Source: a bacterium HR28
GTDB taxonomy: Bacteria > Chloroflexota > Chloroflexia > Thermomicrobiales > Thermomicrobiaceae
Assembly (NCBI GenBank): GCA_002898255.1
Contig: BEIE01000001.1
Coordinates: 496,001 to 560,000 of the forward strand
Reading direction: 5' to 3'
Length of the DNA: 64,000 bases
A program made the position numbers and the translations under genes. How positions within the stretch are numbered: the first letter of the stretch is position 1; the number at the start of each line of letters is the position of its first letter. The notes beneath the pieces were generated by a model. It made no database searches. It saw only the letters and a program-made list of their open reading frames with translations, and had not been told where the DNA came from. This document shows, one piece after another, positions 24,435 to 33,307 of this stretch.

Positions 24435-25421
24435 TCAACTCTGGTAAACTTGTCTTCGGAATGCTAAAGTGGCAATGAAATTGCCAAGCCTCTGCGCGTA
24501 GCGGATGGGTATCATGAACATTCCCGTTGCGAAGAATGGTACCCAAATCCATGTGATGATGTGGAGAAACGGATTTTCAATGAAGTTGCGGAAATTGAGC
24601 TCCGCCAGATACTGCAGCGAAGCGCTGATTGCGTCGTCACCCAGCCAGACAGCGAGCAGGAGGGAGAGTACCGCCACTGTGAAGAAGGTGACCCCTTCGA
24701 CAAGAAGTGCTCGCTGAGTAATCCGCTCGCTCCCCACACTGAGAACTGTAGCGACGAGAGTCTGCGTATCTCGGAGTTTCCCGAGGACGAAGACAGTCGC
24801 GCCGTGTGGCACGTACCGTTCTGTCGCAGCGACTCGTACCAGCCTATCCTCCTCCGAATGAAGGGACTTTGCTGGTAATGCCCAATCTGGCGCTTCCTCC
24901 GGTGCCCATGTTGCACGGACATGCGGCCAATACAACAAGGCATTCCCTAGTTCAAGGTGCACGGATCCGGTACCGTCATTTAACGAAGCATCTGTAAAGA
25001 ATCGGAATGTCGTGGACACGGTAGACGTCTTTCTTCTCAGGAGTCCCGGTTTTCTCCTTGTACTTTTAATTTCCAGCTCATATCCGATTACCTCACGCTG
25101 ACTGAGGGGTCCGACAAGTGGTGAATCGCTAACGACACGTCCCTGGACTTCAATCAGACGACCGACGTGCTGAGGGGTGAGTTCGCACAGAGATACTGTC
25201 GGTAGGTACCGAGCTCTCCGTAGGTGTAAAAAGCGTCTGATGCCAACGACTGTCGTCCCGAGGCCAAGTCCGGCCAGCCCACCCACGACCGTTCCCCAGA
25301 CAAGAAAGAGAGTTAATTCATCACACCACTCTCCTTCACAACGTACACCATGTTTCAGAGCCGGAAGTATGATTGCATTGTCCCACAATAGGGAGAGTAT
25401 GTCTCTGAGTCCCGGAACCAC
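24435..25421 (-). CDS. GIDE/MULAN-like domain membrane protein, paralogue 1
   Basis: 328 residues. N-terminal segment with Cys-x4-Cys (CEGEWC) just before a first membrane helix (about 40-65), then a ~180-residue soluble domain, then two or three helices (about 245-310). The soluble part, IEVQGRVVSDSPLVGPLSQ, RFFTDASLNDGTGSVHLELG, ERYVPHGATVFVLGKL, resembles the GIDE/MULAN 'beside-a-membrane' domain. No RING or enzymatic motif. GTG 25421 follows AAAGGGG. Paralogues lie at 25955 and 28385. Lower GC at third positions than neighbouring genes suggests later acquisition. Confidence 0.65.
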   Translation of the reverse strand: MVPGLRDILSLLWDNAIILPALKHGVRCEGEWCDELTLFLVWGTVVGGLAGLGLGTTVVGIRRFLHLRRARYLPTVSLCELTPQHVGRLIEVQGRVVSDSPLVGPLSQREVIGYELEIKSTRRKPGLLRRKTSTVSTTFRFFTDASLNDGTGSVHLELGNALLYWPHVRATWAPEEAPDWALPAKSLHSEEDRLVRVAATERYVPHGATVFVLGKLRDTQTLVATVLSVGSERITQRALLVEGVTFFTVAVLSLLLAVWLGDDAISASLQYLAELNFRNFIENPFLHIITWIWVPFFATGMFMIPIRYAQRLGNFIATLAFRRQVYQS

Positions 25422-25954
25422 TGCTTGCCCCTTTGTCCTCGATCTACCGCCTTCCAACGAGCGTGCTGTGGGTATCACGCTCTCTTGTCATCGCCAGGTG
25501 TTGTGGCGCGTCAGACTGGAAGGATAATATCCAAGCTGCATTGATCGGAGATGTGGCCGAAGAAGTATGAGTCGATTCGCATGACGTTATCACGATCCTA
25601 CCAACCCAGAAGGTGACCACACTGATTCTTCTCACCACGCCGGTCGGAAGCAAGAGGGGCGCCTTGTCTAGAAACCCCAGCCAAGCCTCTGACTCTGGGA
25701 TCGAGCCAGAAGTAGTGTCAACGGGCCGCTACGTGCTTTGCCAAAAGATGCCCTCACTCAATCGTGTGTCCGGTATCTCCCGCGTTGAGCCCCCGCGGTG
25801 ACAGACAACGATGCGTACTACTTGTTGCAGCGCGTTGCTCGACCTCGTTTGTCGGCGTGTGCAGCCGATCAGATCGACACCTCTCGGTGGTATCCTATTC
25901 TCGATCCTTTCTGACAGGAAGCCTCGACGATCCGCTCTAGAAATACCTCCCTAG
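25422..25954. other. Spacer between GIDE-like paralogues 1 and 2
   Basis: About 530 bp without a convincing gene; frames are short and motif-free. Less GC-rich than the rest of the window. Confidence 0.35.
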
Positions 25955-26899
25955 TCAACCTCCGAGAGCTCTCCCACCCGTGGACCAAGCTCCGATCGGC
26001 TGTATACACCACCGTATCACGCGAGGTGTAAATATCATTAGCAGAATTAATGGAACCAAATGAATCACAGAGGAGTAAATTAGGAGGCCCCAATCCAATC
26101 GGAAGTTTGCTTCCTGCGCCAGCGAGATGCCTTGTGCCCAGGTGCCAACAAAAGACTTCGCCAGCCAAGAGGCGAAGAAGAGGCTTAGTCCCACGAAACC
26201 CAACACACTACGGAGTTCTGTGAGAAGCCCTCGCCTCGCCACGTGTTCTTTGCCGTAGCTGATCGTCGTGGCATCGATGGTCTGTGGCTCGTTCATGACA
26301 CCGATGACAAAAGCCTCACTATTCTGCGGCAAATACTCCTCCACGGCACTAACCTGGGCGAGTCGGAGTCCCGGCGCAGGTGGCGGTGTTGCCCAGTCAG
26401 GAACCTCTGGCGGGCGCCACGATGCTTTCTTGCGAAGCCAATAGCGTTGTGCCCCTGTCACACGCAGCTGGACCGTTCCGGTTCCGTCATCCAGAACCAG
26501 ACCATCGGTGAATTTTTCCTCCTTTTTGGTCCATTGCGCGACTCTGCCCGATTGCCAAGTCCCCCGGATCGTCAAGACATACGCTGCCACCTGCTCCTGA
26601 CTCAGCGGCCCGACTTGCGGTGCCTGGTTTCGGACGTGCCCATGTAGTTTAACGGGCTGCCCAGAAGGATAATCGCCCAGTTCAGCTATCCGAAGTGTCT
26701 TCAAACGCATAATGTTGGTCAGGCGACGTAGGCGATCGGCGCCGAACCGTATCGCTGTTATGGTTCCAAGCACGAAGAAGACTTCAAAATAGCTAAGCCA
26801 AAAGGCATCAGTAATGGTGTCGCACACGGGATCCCGCATGCACGCTCGGGTCGCTGCCCGTAGCAAAGGCCATACTGTCTCGGTTAGGAAGATAAACAC
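25955..26899 (-). CDS. GIDE/MULAN-like domain membrane protein, paralogue 2
   Basis: 314 residues with the same layout as the paralogues: Cys-x5-Cys (CMRDPVC) before the first helix (about 32-52), soluble domain, and two C-terminal helices (about 225-295). Shared blocks: KLHGHVRNQAPQVGPLSQEQV, DGLVLDDGTGTVQLRV, EEYLPQNSEAFVIGVM, each aligning with paralogues 1 and 3. GTG 26899 follows GGGGAGG nine bases away. Identity between copies is low, so the triplication is old. Function unknown; domain assignment is from pattern similarity. Confidence 0.65.
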   Translation of the reverse strand: MFIFLTETVWPLLRAATRACMRDPVCDTITDAFWLSYFEVFFVLGTITAIRFGADRLRRLTNIMRLKTLRIAELGDYPSGQPVKLHGHVRNQAPQVGPLSQEQVAAYVLTIRGTWQSGRVAQWTKKEEKFTDGLVLDDGTGTVQLRVTGAQRYWLRKKASWRPPEVPDWATPPPAPGLRLAQVSAVEEYLPQNSEAFVIGVMNEPQTIDATTISYGKEHVARRGLLTELRSVLGFVGLSLFFASWLAKSFVGTWAQGISLAQEANFRLDWGLLIYSSVIHLVPLILLMIFTPRVIRWCIQPIGAWSTGGRALGG

Positions 26900-26977
26900 T
26901 CTTATGCACCTCCCCGAATGTTGTCGCGACAGTCAGCAAACGATATCAAGATACTATCAATGGTACACGCTAATAAT

Positions 26978-27532
26978 CTAGGGAGGAATGCTCGAGCGCT
27001 CACAGTACTGGAAGGATAAACTTGGTGCACGCATCAGCGGTTCACCGGTGGCAGGCAGATGCTGCACGAGTTCGCCGTTCGCCGCCTGCTCTGTGTTCAC
27101 GTTGTCGTTCACGGGCCGCCGGCAACGGGCGGGGTGCGCGAGCTCACAAAAACGGCCACCGAGCCAGCCTGCTCGAGCCCCTTTAGACCAACCAGTCGAG
27201 CTGGACGTGATACCCGTCTCCCCTATTGCCAACATCTGGGGGAGCACTGGTATTGTCTGTCCCTTGCACAAAGTGTCGAAAAGTTCTTGAGTAGAGAGAG
27301 AAAGCTGATGCAAGTCGCACATGGCTACTCGCAGGCCAGCGCCGATGTCAGACTGCTCTGCGGCCAACTGTACCGCTCGCGATTCTCTTGCCAGCGAATC
27401 CGCCCGTTGCGAAGTCAAGAAGCTCCGAGCCGGTTCGAGAGTGTATTGGTTAACTAGGCCCCTACATGCTTGCTGGTATGGACGGGCACTCAGATCATAG
27501 CACCATTCTCCTCTCTCAAGCAAGCACTGCAA
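26978..27532 (-). CDS. Doubtful hypothetical ORF upstream of paralogue 2
   Basis: 184 codons, TTG start, same strand and 78 bp upstream of paralogue 2. Translation has balanced composition and six cysteines but no motif I know and no membrane helix. A GAGGTGAGGG purine stretch lies about 7 bases before the TTG. Competing open frames exist on the plus strand. Could be a chance frame or a decayed gene. Confidence 0.22.
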   Translation of the reverse strand: MQCLLERGEWCYDLSARPYQQACRGLVNQYTLEPARSFLTSQRADSLARESRAVQLAAEQSDIGAGLRVAMCDLHQLSLSTQELFDTLCKGQTIPVLPQMLAIGETGITSSSTGWSKGARAGWLGGRFCELAHPARCRRPVNDNVNTEQAANGELVQHLPATGEPLMRAPSLSFQYCERSSIPP

Positions 27533-28090
27533 TAGAGCACCCTCACCTCTTCCCCCCCTTTGCTAAGGACAGGTGATCTCACTCATGAAACACTCTGCAA
27601 GGACACTCCCCGTTTGCGTGGCCGACTGTTGATCACGAGGAACAGGTGCTGCCCAATCACGTGACTCCTCTATATCTGGAAACAGCGAGCAGCAAGTTCC
27701 CTGATCCTGCCAGCTAATCAGCAGAGGAAGATCATCGGCTCTTCAGAGGAGGCGCTGTATCGTCCCGGCCAAGGAATTCTGCCAGGAGGAGTGGCGAATC
27801 CTTCCGCCATTTAGGTCCCGCGTGGATTGAGTCGATGATCGGCGTCAGATTTGTGGAGAGGAGAACCGGATCTTGCAGGACCAAAAAGCGAAGCGCCACA
27901 GCAGTCACCGACTATGTGAATGGTGAATGCCGCCGTTGGCCGACCTCACTACCCTCTCTGTCGGAGACTGGTGTGTCGAGAGCTCTTCTGGTTTGCGCAC
28001 CGGATCGCAGGCCAGACTCGCTCGTCACTGTCCCTCGCGGGCACGTTGCTCGGGCTCTGCACCCCGTCCATTGGCGATTCTCGCTAGAGA
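27533..28090. other. Gene-poor spacer in the GIDE-like block
   Basis: About 560 bp with only short overlapping frames. No repeat or hairpin of note. Confidence 0.35.
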
Positions 28091-28357
28091 TCATCGGGTC
28101 GTTGCCACAGCGAGTGCCTTTCGGATAATCCAGCGGGCGTCTTTCAGGCGGGTGAGGAGTTCGTCGTCCCAAAGACACGGCGAGTTCCGCAGCGGACACT
28201 CGGCCGAGCGTGTCTGGATTCCCCCGCTCTTGAAGACGAAGCGAGGAGGAGCGATGTGGAGCAGTTTCGCTTTGTGTTGGGAGGTGTGCAACTGACAGTC
28301 TGCTTTCGGACAGTGCGACAGCCGATGCTTCCCACAAGATCGTCTGGTCGCTTCCAA
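28091..28357 (-). CDS. Small Cys/His-rich hypothetical ORF downstream of paralogue 3
   Basis: 88 codons with TTG start directly after an in-frame stop, 27 bp downstream of paralogue 3 on the same strand. Codon third positions are mostly C/G from about codon 30 (CTC CAC ATC ... TTC GTC TTC AAG), as in real genes here. Five or six cysteines and several histidines (SCGKHRLSHC, ECPLRNSPC) suggest a small metal-binding fold; the C-terminus is a basic helix. No ribosome site is seen, so it may be the remnant of a longer gene. Confidence 0.28.
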   Translation of the reverse strand: MEATRRSCGKHRLSHCPKADCQLHTSQHKAKLLHIAPPRFVFKSGGIQTRSAECPLRNSPCLWDDELLTRLKDARWIIRKALAVATTR

Positions 28358-28384
28358 TCAGGAAGTCAGGTACCCACGGCACGC

Positions 28385-29302
28385 TCACGATTCTACGAAG
28401 CTCTTCCCAATGATCCGGATGAGTTGATAGGTGACGAAGAGAGCGCCAATGCTCGCCAGGAGAATAAGAAGGGCTGCTGCGGTGTGAGTAATCCCGCTGA
28501 GCAAGAGCGGTGTGCCCGACCACGTCATCCGATAGCGGTGCCAAGAACCCAAAACGGGATCGATCAACCGAACTGCCAGAAGCAATGACACCACGGCGAC
28601 GATCCAGCCGCTGAGCCACTCTGCAGTCAGGGCCCGTTTCGTCTTCGCCTCAGTCGTCGCACTCGCCACCTGTGCTTCGACAACCCCTGGCGCAGTCAAT
28701 CGACCAATGACATACAACTCAGTGCCCGCGGGGAGGAACTCTTCTGACGCAGTGACACGGACGAGCTTGTAGCCTTCGCCAGCTGGCGGGGGCGGAGACG
28801 CCCAAGAAGGAGCCTCGTTTCCTGGCCACTCCGTGTACCGCCCTGGCCAGTAGCGCAGCGTATCCCCAATAGAGATGTGGACTTTCCCGGTCCCGTCATC
28901 GAGTTCGAGTCCATCGAGGAACCGCTCCTGTCGTTCTGTCGTCACGCTTTCCTTTTGGTTCCCACTGCCACGCTGCCACTCTCCACGAATCTCTAGAAGG
29001 TAGGCTGCGACAAGTTCCTCGCTGAGCGGGCCACGACGTGGCATCTCGCTCGTCGCTCGCCCGAACAGTTCCACGATGCGGCCAAGGTGACGCTCGTTGA
29101 GCTGGGCGATGTTTCTTTGCCGTGACCGTATGACACGCACGAGCTGGAACAAGCGCAGAAGGCCGACCAATATCCCCACGATTCCGGTCAGCAGAAGTGC
29201 CGCCTCAACACTTCCCCAAAGTGTCAGCCTCCACCAGCCCTCACAGACTTCTCCGCACCGACGGAGAACAGGCAAGAGGAGCACTTCTGGGCCGGGTACC
29301 AT
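28385..29302 (-). CDS. GIDE/MULAN-like domain membrane protein, paralogue 3
   Basis: 305 residues. Cys-x3-Cys (CGEVC) before the first helix (about 30-50), then LNERHLGRIVELFGRATS, GLELDDGTGKVHISIG and EEFLPAGTELYVIGRL in the soluble domain, and two C-terminal helices (about 225-295). This copy has GC-rich codon use like the chromosome, unlike copies 1 and 2. ATG 29302 follows GGGGAGG; the frame extends to 29368 without a site. It follows the thioredoxin-fold gene by 114 bp in the same direction and may be co-transcribed with it. Confidence 0.68.
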   Translation of the reverse strand: MVPGPEVLLLPVLRRCGEVCEGWWRLTLWGSVEAALLLTGIVGILVGLLRLFQLVRVIRSRQRNIAQLNERHLGRIVELFGRATSEMPRRGPLSEELVAAYLLEIRGEWQRGSGNQKESVTTERQERFLDGLELDDGTGKVHISIGDTLRYWPGRYTEWPGNEAPSWASPPPPAGEGYKLVRVTASEEFLPAGTELYVIGRLTAPGVVEAQVASATTEAKTKRALTAEWLSGWIVAVVSLLLAVRLIDPVLGSWHRYRMTWSGTPLLLSGITHTAAALLILLASIGALFVTYQLIRIIGKSFVES

Positions 29303-29416
29303 ACCCGCCTCCCCAAGCCGTTCACCCAACCGCAGACGTGCTGTATTCCTCCGCAGCCTTTGCAGCACCGATTCATCACTGTGCAGAGTGACAGGGACTC
29401 CTCGCAGCGGTACCTC

Positions 29417-29905
29417 TCACCAGCGGCTGGTCTCCCAGCATTCGGGACACTGATACGAGACGTAGCGTACCCATGCGAGGAGTTCCCCAATGTCCGGAAG
29501 CTCGTGCCCATCTCCGGCATTCCATGCCTGCCAGACTGTTCCGGTGTCATCGGCCACCAGGAGGGCTGCTGCAGGGGTCTCTTCCCCCACAAGCCATCCG
29601 AACCGGCGATGGAGCTCGCTTCCCTCGGCAAGCGCGATCGGAAAACGCGGCACTCTCTCTCCCCAGTCAACAACGAGTGTGCGTACGAGCGGCACAATCG
29701 CCAGCACTTCCATCCGCTCTGCTCGGAACTCCGGGAGGTGTTGGTCCAGTTCTGAGAGGTACGCTCGACAGGCTGCACAGGGCCACGCATGAGTGAAGAC
29801 CACCACCAGACCCGAACGCAGGTAGTACCGGCGCGTTGAAATGAGCTGACCGTCGATTCCCTCGGCTTCGAAATCGGGTAGCCGATGACCCGGTGCAATC
29901 GGCAT
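29417..29905 (-). CDS. Thioredoxin-fold (AhpC/TSA-Redoxin-like) protein
   Basis: 162 residues. Peroxiredoxin-like start (PGHRLPDFEAEGIDGQLIS) and a redox motif WPCAACRAYL (C-x-x-C) in the position of the peroxidatic Cys, followed by the usual alpha/beta order and a C-terminal CPEC pair. No signal peptide, so cytoplasmic. It may reduce disulfides or peroxides. ATG 29905 follows GGGGAG. The pairing with a membrane protein having an N-terminal Cys pair hints at a redox partnership, which is inference. Confidence 0.72.
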   Translation of the reverse strand: MPIAPGHRLPDFEAEGIDGQLISTRRYYLRSGLVVVFTHAWPCAACRAYLSELDQHLPEFRAERMEVLAIVPLVRTLVVDWGERVPRFPIALAEGSELHRRFGWLVGEETPAAALLVADDTGTVWQAWNAGDGHELPDIGELLAWVRYVSYQCPECWETSRW

Positions 29906-29959: not shown

Positions 29960-32900
29960 CTATGTTGGTCTGCCCTCTTTATCCTGATCAGTAGCGGTGG
30001 GTGAGGCAAGAAGTCTCTCCGTCACTGTCGTGTCGACCGAAGCGGCTGCCAGGTGCCTCCAATGCCGTACGTGCCGTGCAGCCTCGATCGCCCGTTGGCG
30101 GTCGAAATCGCCACCAAAGAGTGGGCCTTGTCCCAACGTACAGCCGCTCCGGGCCAGTGCTAGGTACACTGCGAACTCGTCGATCGACTCGGCCAGGCTG
30201 ACCAACGAGAGGTCGTTTGCCACCTCCAAGAGTGCGCGTGTCAGAGCAGCGGCCCGCGGGTCATTGAGGAACGACCGGACAAATCCGCTTGGAATCCGAA
30301 TACCTATCCGTTGGAGGTTGACAAACGGATCGATTCCTTCGGGAGTGAGCATCGGGTCGCGGACGAATACACCGATCTGTTCGGCTGCGAGGGTAGTAAG
30401 CCGTTCGGAGGATCCAGGAACGCAAAGCACGCTCGTCGGAAGATCCAACCACAGTCTGCCGCGTAACGTCGGTTGCGTGGCTAGCTGGCCTGTCAAAAGA
30501 TCTGTGACTGTCTCATCGAGCAGCGCTGCGCTCGGAAAGGCGAGAACAAGGAACCAACGCTCCGGGAGTTCCTGTAACCAGGCCAACGCTTCGGCCACTG
30601 CCCGCTGGGCTAGGATGATATCCATGCCAGCACGTGCAGCCACTCCGGCGAGGTCTTCTGCCCGCCGCTCTTTCCCCTGTGGGTCAACCCAGGACGCGAA
30701 GAGTTCCACTCCGACGAGTTCACCAGTCCGCAAGTGCACGATTGGAAGCCCGCGGAAGACGACTGTCTCGCGCTCGATCCCTTCTCGCAGTGCCTGTGCA
30801 AGTGCGAACTCCTGCGGCGCTTCTTCGGCCAGTTCCGGATGAAAGAACACGATGCGTCCCTTTCCGCGTCGTTTGGCGCTGTACAGCGCAAGATCGGCGT
30901 TGCGCAGAACTTCCGAAGCCTCGCAGGGGTTGTCTGGGGTGCAGAGGACAACGCCGATACTCGCGCCAAGCGTCACTATTTGCCCATCGATGCGGTAGGG
31001 ATGCGAGAGGGCGATAAGCAAACGCGCCGCGAGCTCCCGCGCCCCGTCCCGATCGCAGAGTGGAGCGATGATGAGAAACTCGTCGCCTCCAAGCCGGCCC
31101 ACGATGTCATCCCGTCGGACGGTTCGGGTGAGCCGGGTTGCGACCTCTCGCAGGAGCGCATCACCAGCCACATGCCCGAGGGTGTCGTTGACCGCTTTGA
31201 ACCCATCGAGGTCGAGGAGAAGCGCGGCAAACGGGTGGCCTGCTCCGATCAGCTGCTCCAGAGAGGCAATCACCGCTGAGCGGTTCGCCAGACCCGTCAA
31301 GCCATCAGTCCTTGCCAGCCGCTCTAACTGCTGGCGGGTGCGTACTTGCTCGGTGATGTCAAAGGCTATCCCGATGACACCGGTGATCGCACCAGAGCGA
31401 TCACGTAATGGCTCGAGGCGAACCCGGTAGACGTGCTCACTCCACTCGAACTCGTATTCTTGTGGTTCTCCAGCCAGCGCCAGACGATGCAAGCGGATAG
31501 GCAGGAATTCTGGATCCTCGGTTCCAAAGTACTCGAACAACGTCTGGCCAACCACCTGTCCAGGGCGAAGACCAAGCTGTGCCAGTCCGCTTCCCTCGCT
31601 TGAGGTGAAGACAAGATCGTGATCCACTGTCCAGACAATAGCTGGAAGTTGCCGTAGGACTGCTTGAAGGCGTGCCTCCCGCTCAGCCAGGAGGCGCTCG
31701 ATTGTCCGGCGTTCGTCAATCTCCTCCTGAAGTTGCTGGCTTATCTGGCGCAGTCGTCGATTGGTGGCCGCTTGACGCCAGCCGATGGCCAGAGCCGCGG
31801 CGAGCAGGAGGGTCGCCAGGATGCCTAGAGCCCCAATGACCCAAGGAAAGGGCACGAGCAGCAGTTGGGCGCGCATCGCACCCAGCCGGGTACTGACGCG
31901 CAGCACACCAATATCTGCTTGGGTGGTCGGGACACGAGCGGTCACGGCTGGTGTCCCGGGGTGCGGAGTCCCTGCTGCCAGGAGCGGCTCGCCATTCAGC
32001 GAGAGTGTCAGTGCGCTCCCACGATTCACCGTTGCCTGCATGGCGGGAGCAAAGAACACTTCAGGATCCAGGACAGCCATCACTTCCCCATCCGGTCGGC
32101 TCCACTGGACGAGCAGCGCTGGCTGTCCTCCTGGAAGCTCTGCGCGTCTGAGCATGACGCTCGACGGGGGAATGCGTGGTGCTGCCGTCGTCACCGTAGT
32201 GATCAGCTCGTCTTCATGCGCCTTCCAAACATCAGCGATGAAAAGTGTTGTTGTTCCTGAGGGGTTCCTGCGTCCGTACCAGACGAGTCCGGGGACACTC
32301 TGGTCATCGACACCGGCTCGCTCGACGCGGCTCGGATGAAGACGTTGCAGCCGGGCATCAAGAAGTGTTCCGATGTGGTTCGCGGCTGCTATTGCTTCGC
32401 TGCGTGTCTGCGCTAGCAACGTATTCTGCTGCCATCGCTGGAGAGCAAGTGTCATGATAGCCGTGAGGACTAACCCCGCTGCGAGAGCTCCCCAGGGTGC
32501 CCAGCGGAAGGAGGGTCGACCTGCCGCGCGATCGTAGCGCACACCAGCAAGGATGGTGAGGAGGTTGGCGACTGCGAGGAACGCTGGGATGGCAGAGAAG
32601 GTATTACCTCGCAGGGCCAGCAAGGGGTCGATACGGGTGAATGGCGCGAACAGCGCCAGTAGATGCAATGTCGCAGCGAGCGTCGAGGCCACCGCAGAAA
32701 TGCAGACCAAACGCGCATGCTTGCCGAATGCCAGTGTCAGGAGTCCGAGCCCTGTGAGCGCGAGCGATGCGACGGGGATCAGATCGTGGTTTGTTTGGAC
32801 ACCAGGTGCGTTCCTGGTGAGACTTCCGGTCGCGAGAGCAAGGCCAAATGCGGACCCGCTGGCCGTAAGGAGGGCGTAGCGATGCCAGGATCTCGGCGGA

Positions 32901-33148
32901 GCGCTGAGTGTGCCGAGCAGAGCGGCTCCGACGATTACCAAGATGCTGAGTACCACGATTGATAGGTGTGGAGTGACCCCGTTCCCTCGAGCTAGACTCG
33001 TCCACGCCGTAAGGCTGGCAACGAGGGCAACCCATACCAGCGCAAGAAACGAACTCTGCGACCATGACGGAGCATGCCACCGCCATCCCGCATCGAAACT
33101 TCCTCTCGAGGGGGGATGCTGTTCGTTCCGCTGTCCTGAATCGATCAT
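29960..33148 (-). CDS. Membrane PAS-GGDEF protein with degenerate EAL domain
   Basis: 1062 residues. Order: about six membrane helices (40-250), an extracytoplasmic sensor region (to ~440), a further helix, coiled linker, PAS domain (about 490-610), GGDEF (about 620-780), EAL-like (about 790-1040). The cyclase motif RLGGDEFLII is intact, with an inhibitory RxxD site five residues before it, so c-di-GMP synthesis is likely. The EAL position reads VELFASW and the DDFGTG-type metal motif is missing, so phosphodiesterase activity is unlikely. ATG 33148 follows TGAGGG; the upstream extension is not protein-like. No receptor neighbour. Confidence 0.9.
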   Translation of the reverse strand: MIDSGQRNEQHPPSRGSFDAGWRWHAPSWSQSSFLALVWVALVASLTAWTSLARGNGVTPHLSIVVLSILVIVGAALLGTLSAPPRSWHRYALLTASGSAFGLALATGSLTRNAPGVQTNHDLIPVASLALTGLGLLTLAFGKHARLVCISAVASTLAATLHLLALFAPFTRIDPLLALRGNTFSAIPAFLAVANLLTILAGVRYDRAAGRPSFRWAPWGALAAGLVLTAIMTLALQRWQQNTLLAQTRSEAIAAANHIGTLLDARLQRLHPSRVERAGVDDQSVPGLVWYGRRNPSGTTTLFIADVWKAHEDELITTVTTAAPRIPPSSVMLRRAELPGGQPALLVQWSRPDGEVMAVLDPEVFFAPAMQATVNRGSALTLSLNGEPLLAAGTPHPGTPAVTARVPTTQADIGVLRVSTRLGAMRAQLLLVPFPWVIGALGILATLLLAAALAIGWRQAATNRRLRQISQQLQEEIDERRTIERLLAEREARLQAVLRQLPAIVWTVDHDLVFTSSEGSGLAQLGLRPGQVVGQTLFEYFGTEDPEFLPIRLHRLALAGEPQEYEFEWSEHVYRVRLEPLRDRSGAITGVIGIAFDITEQVRTRQQLERLARTDGLTGLANRSAVIASLEQLIGAGHPFAALLLDLDGFKAVNDTLGHVAGDALLREVATRLTRTVRRDDIVGRLGGDEFLIIAPLCDRDGARELAARLLIALSHPYRIDGQIVTLGASIGVVLCTPDNPCEASEVLRNADLALYSAKRRGKGRIVFFHPELAEEAPQEFALAQALREGIERETVVFRGLPIVHLRTGELVGVELFASWVDPQGKERRAEDLAGVAARAGMDIILAQRAVAEALAWLQELPERWFLVLAFPSAALLDETVTDLLTGQLATQPTLRGRLWLDLPTSVLCVPGSSERLTTLAAEQIGVFVRDPMLTPEGIDPFVNLQRIGIRIPSGFVRSFLNDPRAAALTRALLEVANDLSLVSLAESIDEFAVYLALARSGCTLGQGPLFGGDFDRQRAIEAARHVRHWRHLAAASVDTTVTERLLASPTATDQDKEGRPT

Positions 33149-33307
33149 AGATACCCTCAGGTTAAGGCCTGGTCTCCTGCGGATCCGGCCACGTCGAGCT
33201 ACACCGATCGTCGTCGCGCGCGAGAGCGCGTACTGTCCCTTATAACGACGCGCCGTCACTCCGATAAATAGCCTGATCGTCCAGTATTTTCCGAGACGGA
33301 GCGAAAA

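Follow-up and report, generated by a model that had tools for sequence, protein, structure and literature searches.

Three apparent distant relatives of GIDE membrane proteins beside a predicted redoxin in a Thermomicrobiaceae genome

Why a bacterial genome should hold three related membrane proteins beside a redoxin, and what these proteins are, is the question raised by a locus of bacterium HR28 (Thermomicrobiaceae, Chloroflexota). The locus lies in a stretch of 64,000 nucleotides (contig BEIE01000001.1, positions 496,001 to 560,000; hereafter the window) and comprises the membrane proteins P1 (24435..25421), P2 (25955..26899) and P3 (28385..29302) and the redoxin (29417..29905). An earlier prediction from the letters alone (the original prediction) had seen in them GIDE-like domains and redox signalling at the membrane; the four genes were found where it had placed them, all on the minus strand. 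The explanation we favour, with a probability of about 0.55 as a whole, is that P1-P3 would be an expansion, within the genus, of GIDE proteins with an oligonucleotide-binding (OB) type barrel, that P3 belongs to a probable operon, and that the barrel acts as a docking adaptor.

The three proteins are indeed intact paralogues. Their reading frames are open, tblastn among them gave E values of 1.3e-31 to 3e-41, far beyond chance, and their mutual identity is 31-33% (with longer starts, identity to P1 is 30% for P2 and 34% for P3). Starts of the three genes and of the redoxin gene were picked by eye, using GG-rich upstream sites and the extent of alignability with relatives: GTG for P1 (328 aa; a longer frame reaches 25478) and for P2 (314 aa), and ATG for P3 (305 aa), the last two with GGGGAGG upstream. 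The cysteine pairs have the predicted spacings, C28-x4-C33 in P1 (25323..25340), C20-x5-C26 in P2 (26822..26842) and C16-x3-C20 in P3 (29243..29257). Both predicted sequence blocks were also found in all three proteins, the DGTG block as NDGTG in P1 and DDGTG in P2 and P3, the other as an E..(Y/F)(V/L)P...(F/Y)V(I/L)G-type block. A fourth copy was not detected, either in the 1.5 kb that separate P2 from P3 (tblastn, E 1e-3) or elsewhere in the window's genome (E up to 10). A scan of genome contigs with the three-paralogue alignment gave no confirmed relative.

To relate these proteins to GIDE, they were compared with the Pfam family PF12483. P1 and P2 went unmatched at E up to 5, and P3 scored 12.0 bits, below the cut-off of 23.6. 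The four other intact copies of the genus reached 15.2-19.2 bits; E values for the five of seven genus copies that match the model are 9e-4 to 0.14, compared with 2e-32 to 2.8e-46 for three canonical proteins from sister genera. Profile-profile comparison was more telling: hhalign matched the seven intact genus copies to three sister-genus GIDE proteins with a probability of 94.3% (E 9.5e-8). The match spans 199 columns, starting where the first membrane helix ends and including the second, while a control against the redoxin alignment gave 0.3%. With P1 as query, tblastn found the canonical GIDE of genome G007 (locus L057) and that of locus L092 at E about 8e-6, a favourable value since the database held only 14 loci. 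Hydropathy and models place membrane helices on both sides of the soluble domain, as in GIDE, with one extra C-terminal helix in the genus copies. Pfam searches at E up to 5 matched no RING domain in any of the seven intact genus copies, P1-P3 included. In a tree of 11 proteins, in which P1, P2 and P3 take no firm branching order and long branches call for caution, the genus copies split from canonical GIDE with full support. Taken together, hhalign and tblastn identify P1-P3, at the level of sequence, as distant homologues of GIDE, and the missed cut-off leaves them outside the family by Pfam's criterion. Thus, the GIDE-like identity claimed by the original prediction held as distant homology, with gene order and models in agreement, and failed as Pfam membership.

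Structure prediction, which the original prediction had proposed as a check, gave models of P3 and of a canonical GIDE protein (L092) that both match OB domains. The AlphaFold model of P3, built from nine sequences, has a mean pLDDT of 77.7, with ten-residue block means of 82-96 from residue 61 to 220. It shows a short N-terminal helix (residues 5-15) and long helices at 18-58, 218-260 and 266-304, so that one membrane helix precedes the soluble domain and two come after, in line with the predicted order of one helix, soluble domain and C-terminal helices. Residues 61-217 (28652..29122) form a predicted OB-type beta-barrel, the GIDE-like domain. The 50 VIA-align matches listed for this model (Z 10.3 to 8.9) are OB-bearing chains such as MCM, AspRS/AsnRS, RPA and Stn1-Ten1, the best being 8xgc_9 (Z 10.3, root-mean-square deviation 2.6, 81 residues aligned to the predicted model). 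For the L092 model (pLDDT 83.4), OB domains of PolD, CST, RPA and Ten1 came out on top, with Z up to 9.4. Models without a clear match commonly give a best Z of 7 to 8, and 9.4 and 10.3 lie moderately above this; a better argument for a predicted OB fold than Z itself is that nearly all matches listed are OB-bearing chains. The strand order of the two models is similar, as predicted from the same nine sequences and compared without superposition; the two results are not independent, because the alignments hold the same sequences. The net charge of the domain was -2 to +7 in the nine proteins computed and is therefore no sign for or against nucleic-acid binding.

The setting of the genes was then compared between genomes. 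Of the seven genomes of the genus, six, the window's among them, have a GIDE-like gene or its remains; the exception (G004) is 54% complete. The redoxin adjoins the GIDE-like gene in all six, and the order is the same throughout, to contig limits: GGDEF, redoxin, GIDE-like, then convergent LDH, USP and E1 genes. Upstream of GGDEF comes ribonucleotide reductase (RNR) in all but G006, where the contig ends within GGDEF. A different order, GGDEF, GIDE, redoxin, was seen in the three genomes of the sister genus that hold GIDE (3/3), and in G007 GIDE adjoins RNR. In the window, a PAS-GGDEF-EAL protein (29960..33259, minus strand) lies 54 bp upstream of the redoxin, which in turn is separated from P3 by 114 bp; these short gaps on the same strand make GGDEF-redoxin-P3 a likely operon.

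Beyond the two genera, the pairing is not general. Nine of 14 same-family genomes from genera other than that of the window have GIDE above the Pfam cut-off, one each, and a phylum search gave 58 matches in 50 of 399 genomes; loci were retrieved for 30 of the matches, 24 of them new. A profile built from this redoxin family found no redoxin at 30 other GIDE loci (24 from the phylum and six from the same family; flanks of at most 1.5 kb). The predicted pairing is thus kept in two genera (6/6 and 3/3) and missing from the other GIDE loci scanned (0/30). Being kept in two genera, it withstands the refutation set by the original prediction, absence from all other genomes.

The redoxin itself (162 aa, ATG start) meets the Pfam AhpC-TSA model (PF00578) with 43.8 bits (cut-off 26, E 3e-11) over residues 10-129 of the longer start, and its predicted nature as a C-x-x-C thioredoxin-fold protein on the same strand was borne out. 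An NCBIfam SelL-related model gave only 30.2 bits (cut-off 120), and a sequence search against solved structures returned nothing at 1e-3. The protein has a W-P-C-x-x-C motif with an active-site-like C43-x-x-C46 (29768..29779) and a C-terminal C153-P-E-C156 (29438..29449). All four cysteines are invariant in the nine redoxins aligned (9/9), and the L041 redoxin, kept out of this alignment, shows the same motifs. The motifs point to two dithiols, with redox activity predicted. By eye no hydrophobic leader was seen, and the protein looks cytosolic. The PAS-GGDEF-EAL protein may be a cyclase with a non-catalytic EAL domain, because its EAL signature reads ELF while the GGDEF motif is intact.

The original prediction had linked the two kinds of protein through their cysteines: the redoxin would reduce or oxidise the N-terminal pairs, and the three membrane proteins would be redox sensors. 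Such a thiol relay is consistent with the presence of the pair in all seven intact genus copies and with the adjacent redoxin in each of the six genus genomes holding the gene. The predicted topology argues against it. In all 11 proteins, the net charge of the 15 residues after the pre-domain membrane helix lies between +2 and +6, and this positive charge predicts that the barrel lies on the cytosolic face and the N-terminus with the cysteine pair outside. Two observations call for caution, as the N-side of the G013 protein is equally positive (+3), and in the G001 copy residues 4-22 are likewise flagged by hydropathy; as a membrane segment they would shift that N-terminus, in favour of the relay. 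Furthermore, the pair is lacking in all four canonical GIDE proteins examined, the sister genus retains the redoxin beside such a GIDE, and the cysteine spacing varies from three to five residues. A genus-specific pair predicted outside, a redoxin that looks cytosolic and a sister-genus GIDE that is paired with redoxin and has no cysteine pair together make the relay unlikely.

Copy number and divergence bear on why there are three copies. Intact copies number from 0 to 3 per genus genome: G001, G002 and G006 have one each, G003 has an intact P3 orthologue (78% identical) and a broken P1-like copy, and in the metagenome assembly G005 a P3-like and a P1-like copy are both broken. Breakage in these two relatives suggests birth and death of a dispensable gene. 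Judged from the sequences compared, the GIDE-like family in this genus is fast evolving, and is duplicated and lost. P3 is under selection, weaker than on its neighbours: its dN/dS against the G003 orthologue is 0.31 (0.37 for the G001-G006 pair), where the redoxin shows 0.15-0.19 and LDH 0.08. Mismatch between P3 and this orthologue is 0.13, 0.13 and 0.28 at the three codon positions; for P1 and its broken G003 counterpart (71% DNA identity) it is 0.27, 0.25 and 0.34. Selection on P1 and P2 shows less clearly than on P3.

P1 and P2 could accordingly be drifting duplicates with little present function, P3 alone being of importance. Besides the broken copies in G003 and G005, this would fit the P2 region, which has no alignable counterpart in G003, and the base composition. 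As predicted, the guanine-plus-cytosine (GC) content is lower in the first two copies (P1 53.1%, P2 55.4%) than in P3 (59.6%; redoxin 61.9%), close to that of the similarly poor spacers around P1 and P2 (55.3% and 57.2%). With spacers equally GC-poor, the low values are compatible with relaxed constraint or foreign origin. Horizontal acquisition as the preferred cause was rejected, given these spacers and a third-position GC of 75-80% in the G001, G002 and G006 copies. What speaks against mere leftovers is that the P1 and P2 frames run uninterrupted for 328 and 314 codons and begin at plausible start sites. Under random mutation at 0.18 per site, which is half the P1-G003 distance and was assumed for P2, P1 or P2 stayed stop-free in 0.45% of 2000 trials (4-5% at 0.10). 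We regard such loss of function as possible, with the odds against it. The ~1.5 kb between P2 and P3 (26900-28384) contains no convincing gene and can be aligned with G003 only at its P3-side end; it may hold remains of lost copies.

The same divergence could mark a rapidly diversifying surface or defence protein with an outer loop under attack. Genus copies other than the G003 orthologue are only 37-39% identical to P3, where the USP, LDH and E1 genes keep 83-99%, and the number of intact copies varies. The adjacent genes for GGDEF (57-82%) and the redoxin (48-87%), however, diverge fast as well, and dN/dS is well under 1 in the two close pairs. Searches with P1, P2, P3, the redoxin and the L092 GIDE gave no PADLOC family at E up to 1 and no PHROGs match, mobile genes receiving no separate search. 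The defence role raised by the original prediction has only fast divergence and variable copy number in its favour, and we consider it highly improbable.

The favoured explanation can now be set out in full. P1-P3 would have arisen by expansion of a single bacterial GIDE gene within one genus, presumably Thermomicrobium. Each copy would sit in the membrane by one N-terminal helix and two C-terminal ones, with the OB-type barrel on the cytosolic face, as the models and the charge bias suggest. P3 would be expressed from the probable operon with the PAS-GGDEF-EAL protein and the cytosolic dithiol redoxin, and its barrel would hold the redoxin, or a redoxin client, at the inner face of the membrane, perhaps beneath the GGDEF protein. 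Contact would be made through folded surfaces; the N-terminal cysteines would play no part in it and more likely form a disulfide on the outside. P1 and P2 probably arose by older duplications and are less constrained. Homology, gene order, conserved sequence and the broken copies of relatives are observed here, and fold and topology are predictions; the adaptor role we infer from gene order alone and hold to be possible but doubtful.

Several findings weigh against this explanation. None of the seven intact genus copies reaches the Pfam cut-off. The OB fold is based on two models from the same nine sequences, and Foldseek was weak for P3, with one match at E 9.7e-4 and a query-normalised template-modelling score of at most 0.19 among the 50 matches listed; for the L092 model it gave none below 1e-3, and immunoglobulin-like chains were mixed into the best matches. 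In G005 the redoxin is intact (83% identical) while the GIDE-like copies are broken, which also speaks against the thiol relay. In G007, GIDE and redoxin lie about 70 kb apart. The redoxin of G009 stands beside LDH with no adjacent GIDE and none found in the genome, and the L094 redoxin was seen without GIDE on a contig that begins about 250 bp before it. G018, a sister-genus genome that is 81% complete, has neither gene at the thresholds used. No neighbour recurred at other GIDE loci among the best 25 of the 44 families listed, in a survey of 110 mechanically chosen open reading frames from 29 loci in which 44 families were matched, the commonest in four members, and in which a single AhpC/TSA match could escape notice. 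The GIDE-like genes and the redoxin may therefore be chance neighbours with separate roles at a stable chromosomal site, as G009, L094 (as far as its contig shows), G007 and the 24 phylum loci would suggest. On the other side, the order differs between the genera, and the trio of GGDEF, redoxin and GIDE is nevertheless kept in 6/6 and 3/3 of the genomes that have the GIDE-type gene. Chance neighbourhood thus seems a minority prospect, one that should be kept in mind.

Some further observations concern the neighbouring genes. The B12-dependent RNR of SKW109 (G002; L090, 1376-2442) has an interruption of about 1 kb at residue 420, and that of G001 (L014, 2-1067) has in-frame extra sequence before residue 420. 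This candidate intein is absent from the window's gene. Selenocysteine was considered for the G007 and G012 redoxins and rejected, as the TGA there reads as the normal stop codon directly following C-E-C. A candidate selenoprotein, in contrast, is a distant paralogue of the redoxin whose active site has an in-frame TGA (RG-L/F-x-U-P-Y/H-C), in G002, G001, G008, G013, G016 and G009 (L033, L034, L035, L036, L037 and L038, respectively); among the matches listed at E 1e-8 there was none from the window's own genome. Finally, a redoxin relative in G011 (L032) has Y-A-T-T at the C-x-x-C position and has likely lost its active-site cysteines.

P1-P3 belong to a known but poorly studied kind of protein; PMC4457424 calls the conserved function of the BAM/GIDE domain an open question. 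This function becomes testable with the OB fold predicted here and with partners conserved in thermophilic bacteria, which offer stable proteins to structural studies and a defined partner to binding assays. From the genus copies it can also be seen how much drift the family allows with its core kept, so that surveys relying on the Pfam cut-off miss such forms. More speculatively, and with less confidence than for the adaptor role, the GIDE/BAM domain in general might be a membrane-tethered OB barrel that in Thermomicrobium and its sister genus forms an inner-membrane module with the GGDEF protein and the double-dithiol redoxin. If true, this three-part module would suggest that the domain of the mitochondrial ligase had an ancestor with a role in redox or stress. 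In searches whose coverage left out subscription papers and preprints, we found no described fold for the GIDE/BAM domain, no paper joining MUL1 or the BAM domain with the OB-fold, none for 'beside a membrane' with oligonucleotide-binding, and none for E3 ubiquitin ligase with Thermomicrobium.

Among known systems, the closest are the RING-less bacterial GIDE/BAM proteins (PF12483). P1-P3 share with them the order of helix, soluble domain and helix, the D-x-G-T/S-G and E...YV.G blocks in alignment, the profile-profile match, a mostly equal predicted strand order and a corresponding locus in the sister genera. They differ in scoring below the Pfam cut-off, in the extra C-terminal membrane helix and the N-terminal cysteine pair, in not keeping, at the corresponding column, the cysteine of the C-V-Y segment of the aligned canonical copies, and in the duplication of the gene in the window genome. 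MUL1/MAPL/MULAN, a eukaryotic BAM-RING ligase, likewise has its BAM/GIDE domain between membrane helices, in human in the intermembrane space (PMC4457424); P1-P3 differ in having no RING, like the prokaryotic sequences described there.

The predicted barrel resembles the OB domains of MCM, AspRS/AsnRS and RPA, with Z up to 10.3 for P3. The canonical GIDE model also matches the membrane-anchored OB protein CcmE, membrane helix included (Z 7.6, root-mean-square deviation 7.8, 114 residues aligned). CcmE faces the periplasm. Unlike the fold, sequence gave no relation to OB proteins among solved structures, where the GIDE-like profile found only Centrin-2 (E 0.55 and 0.97). Lastly, the redoxin agrees with the AhpC/TSA redoxins (PF00578) in its thioredoxin-fold family and C-x-x-C motif, and is set apart from them and from SelL-related proteins by its second, C-terminal C-x-E-C dithiol.

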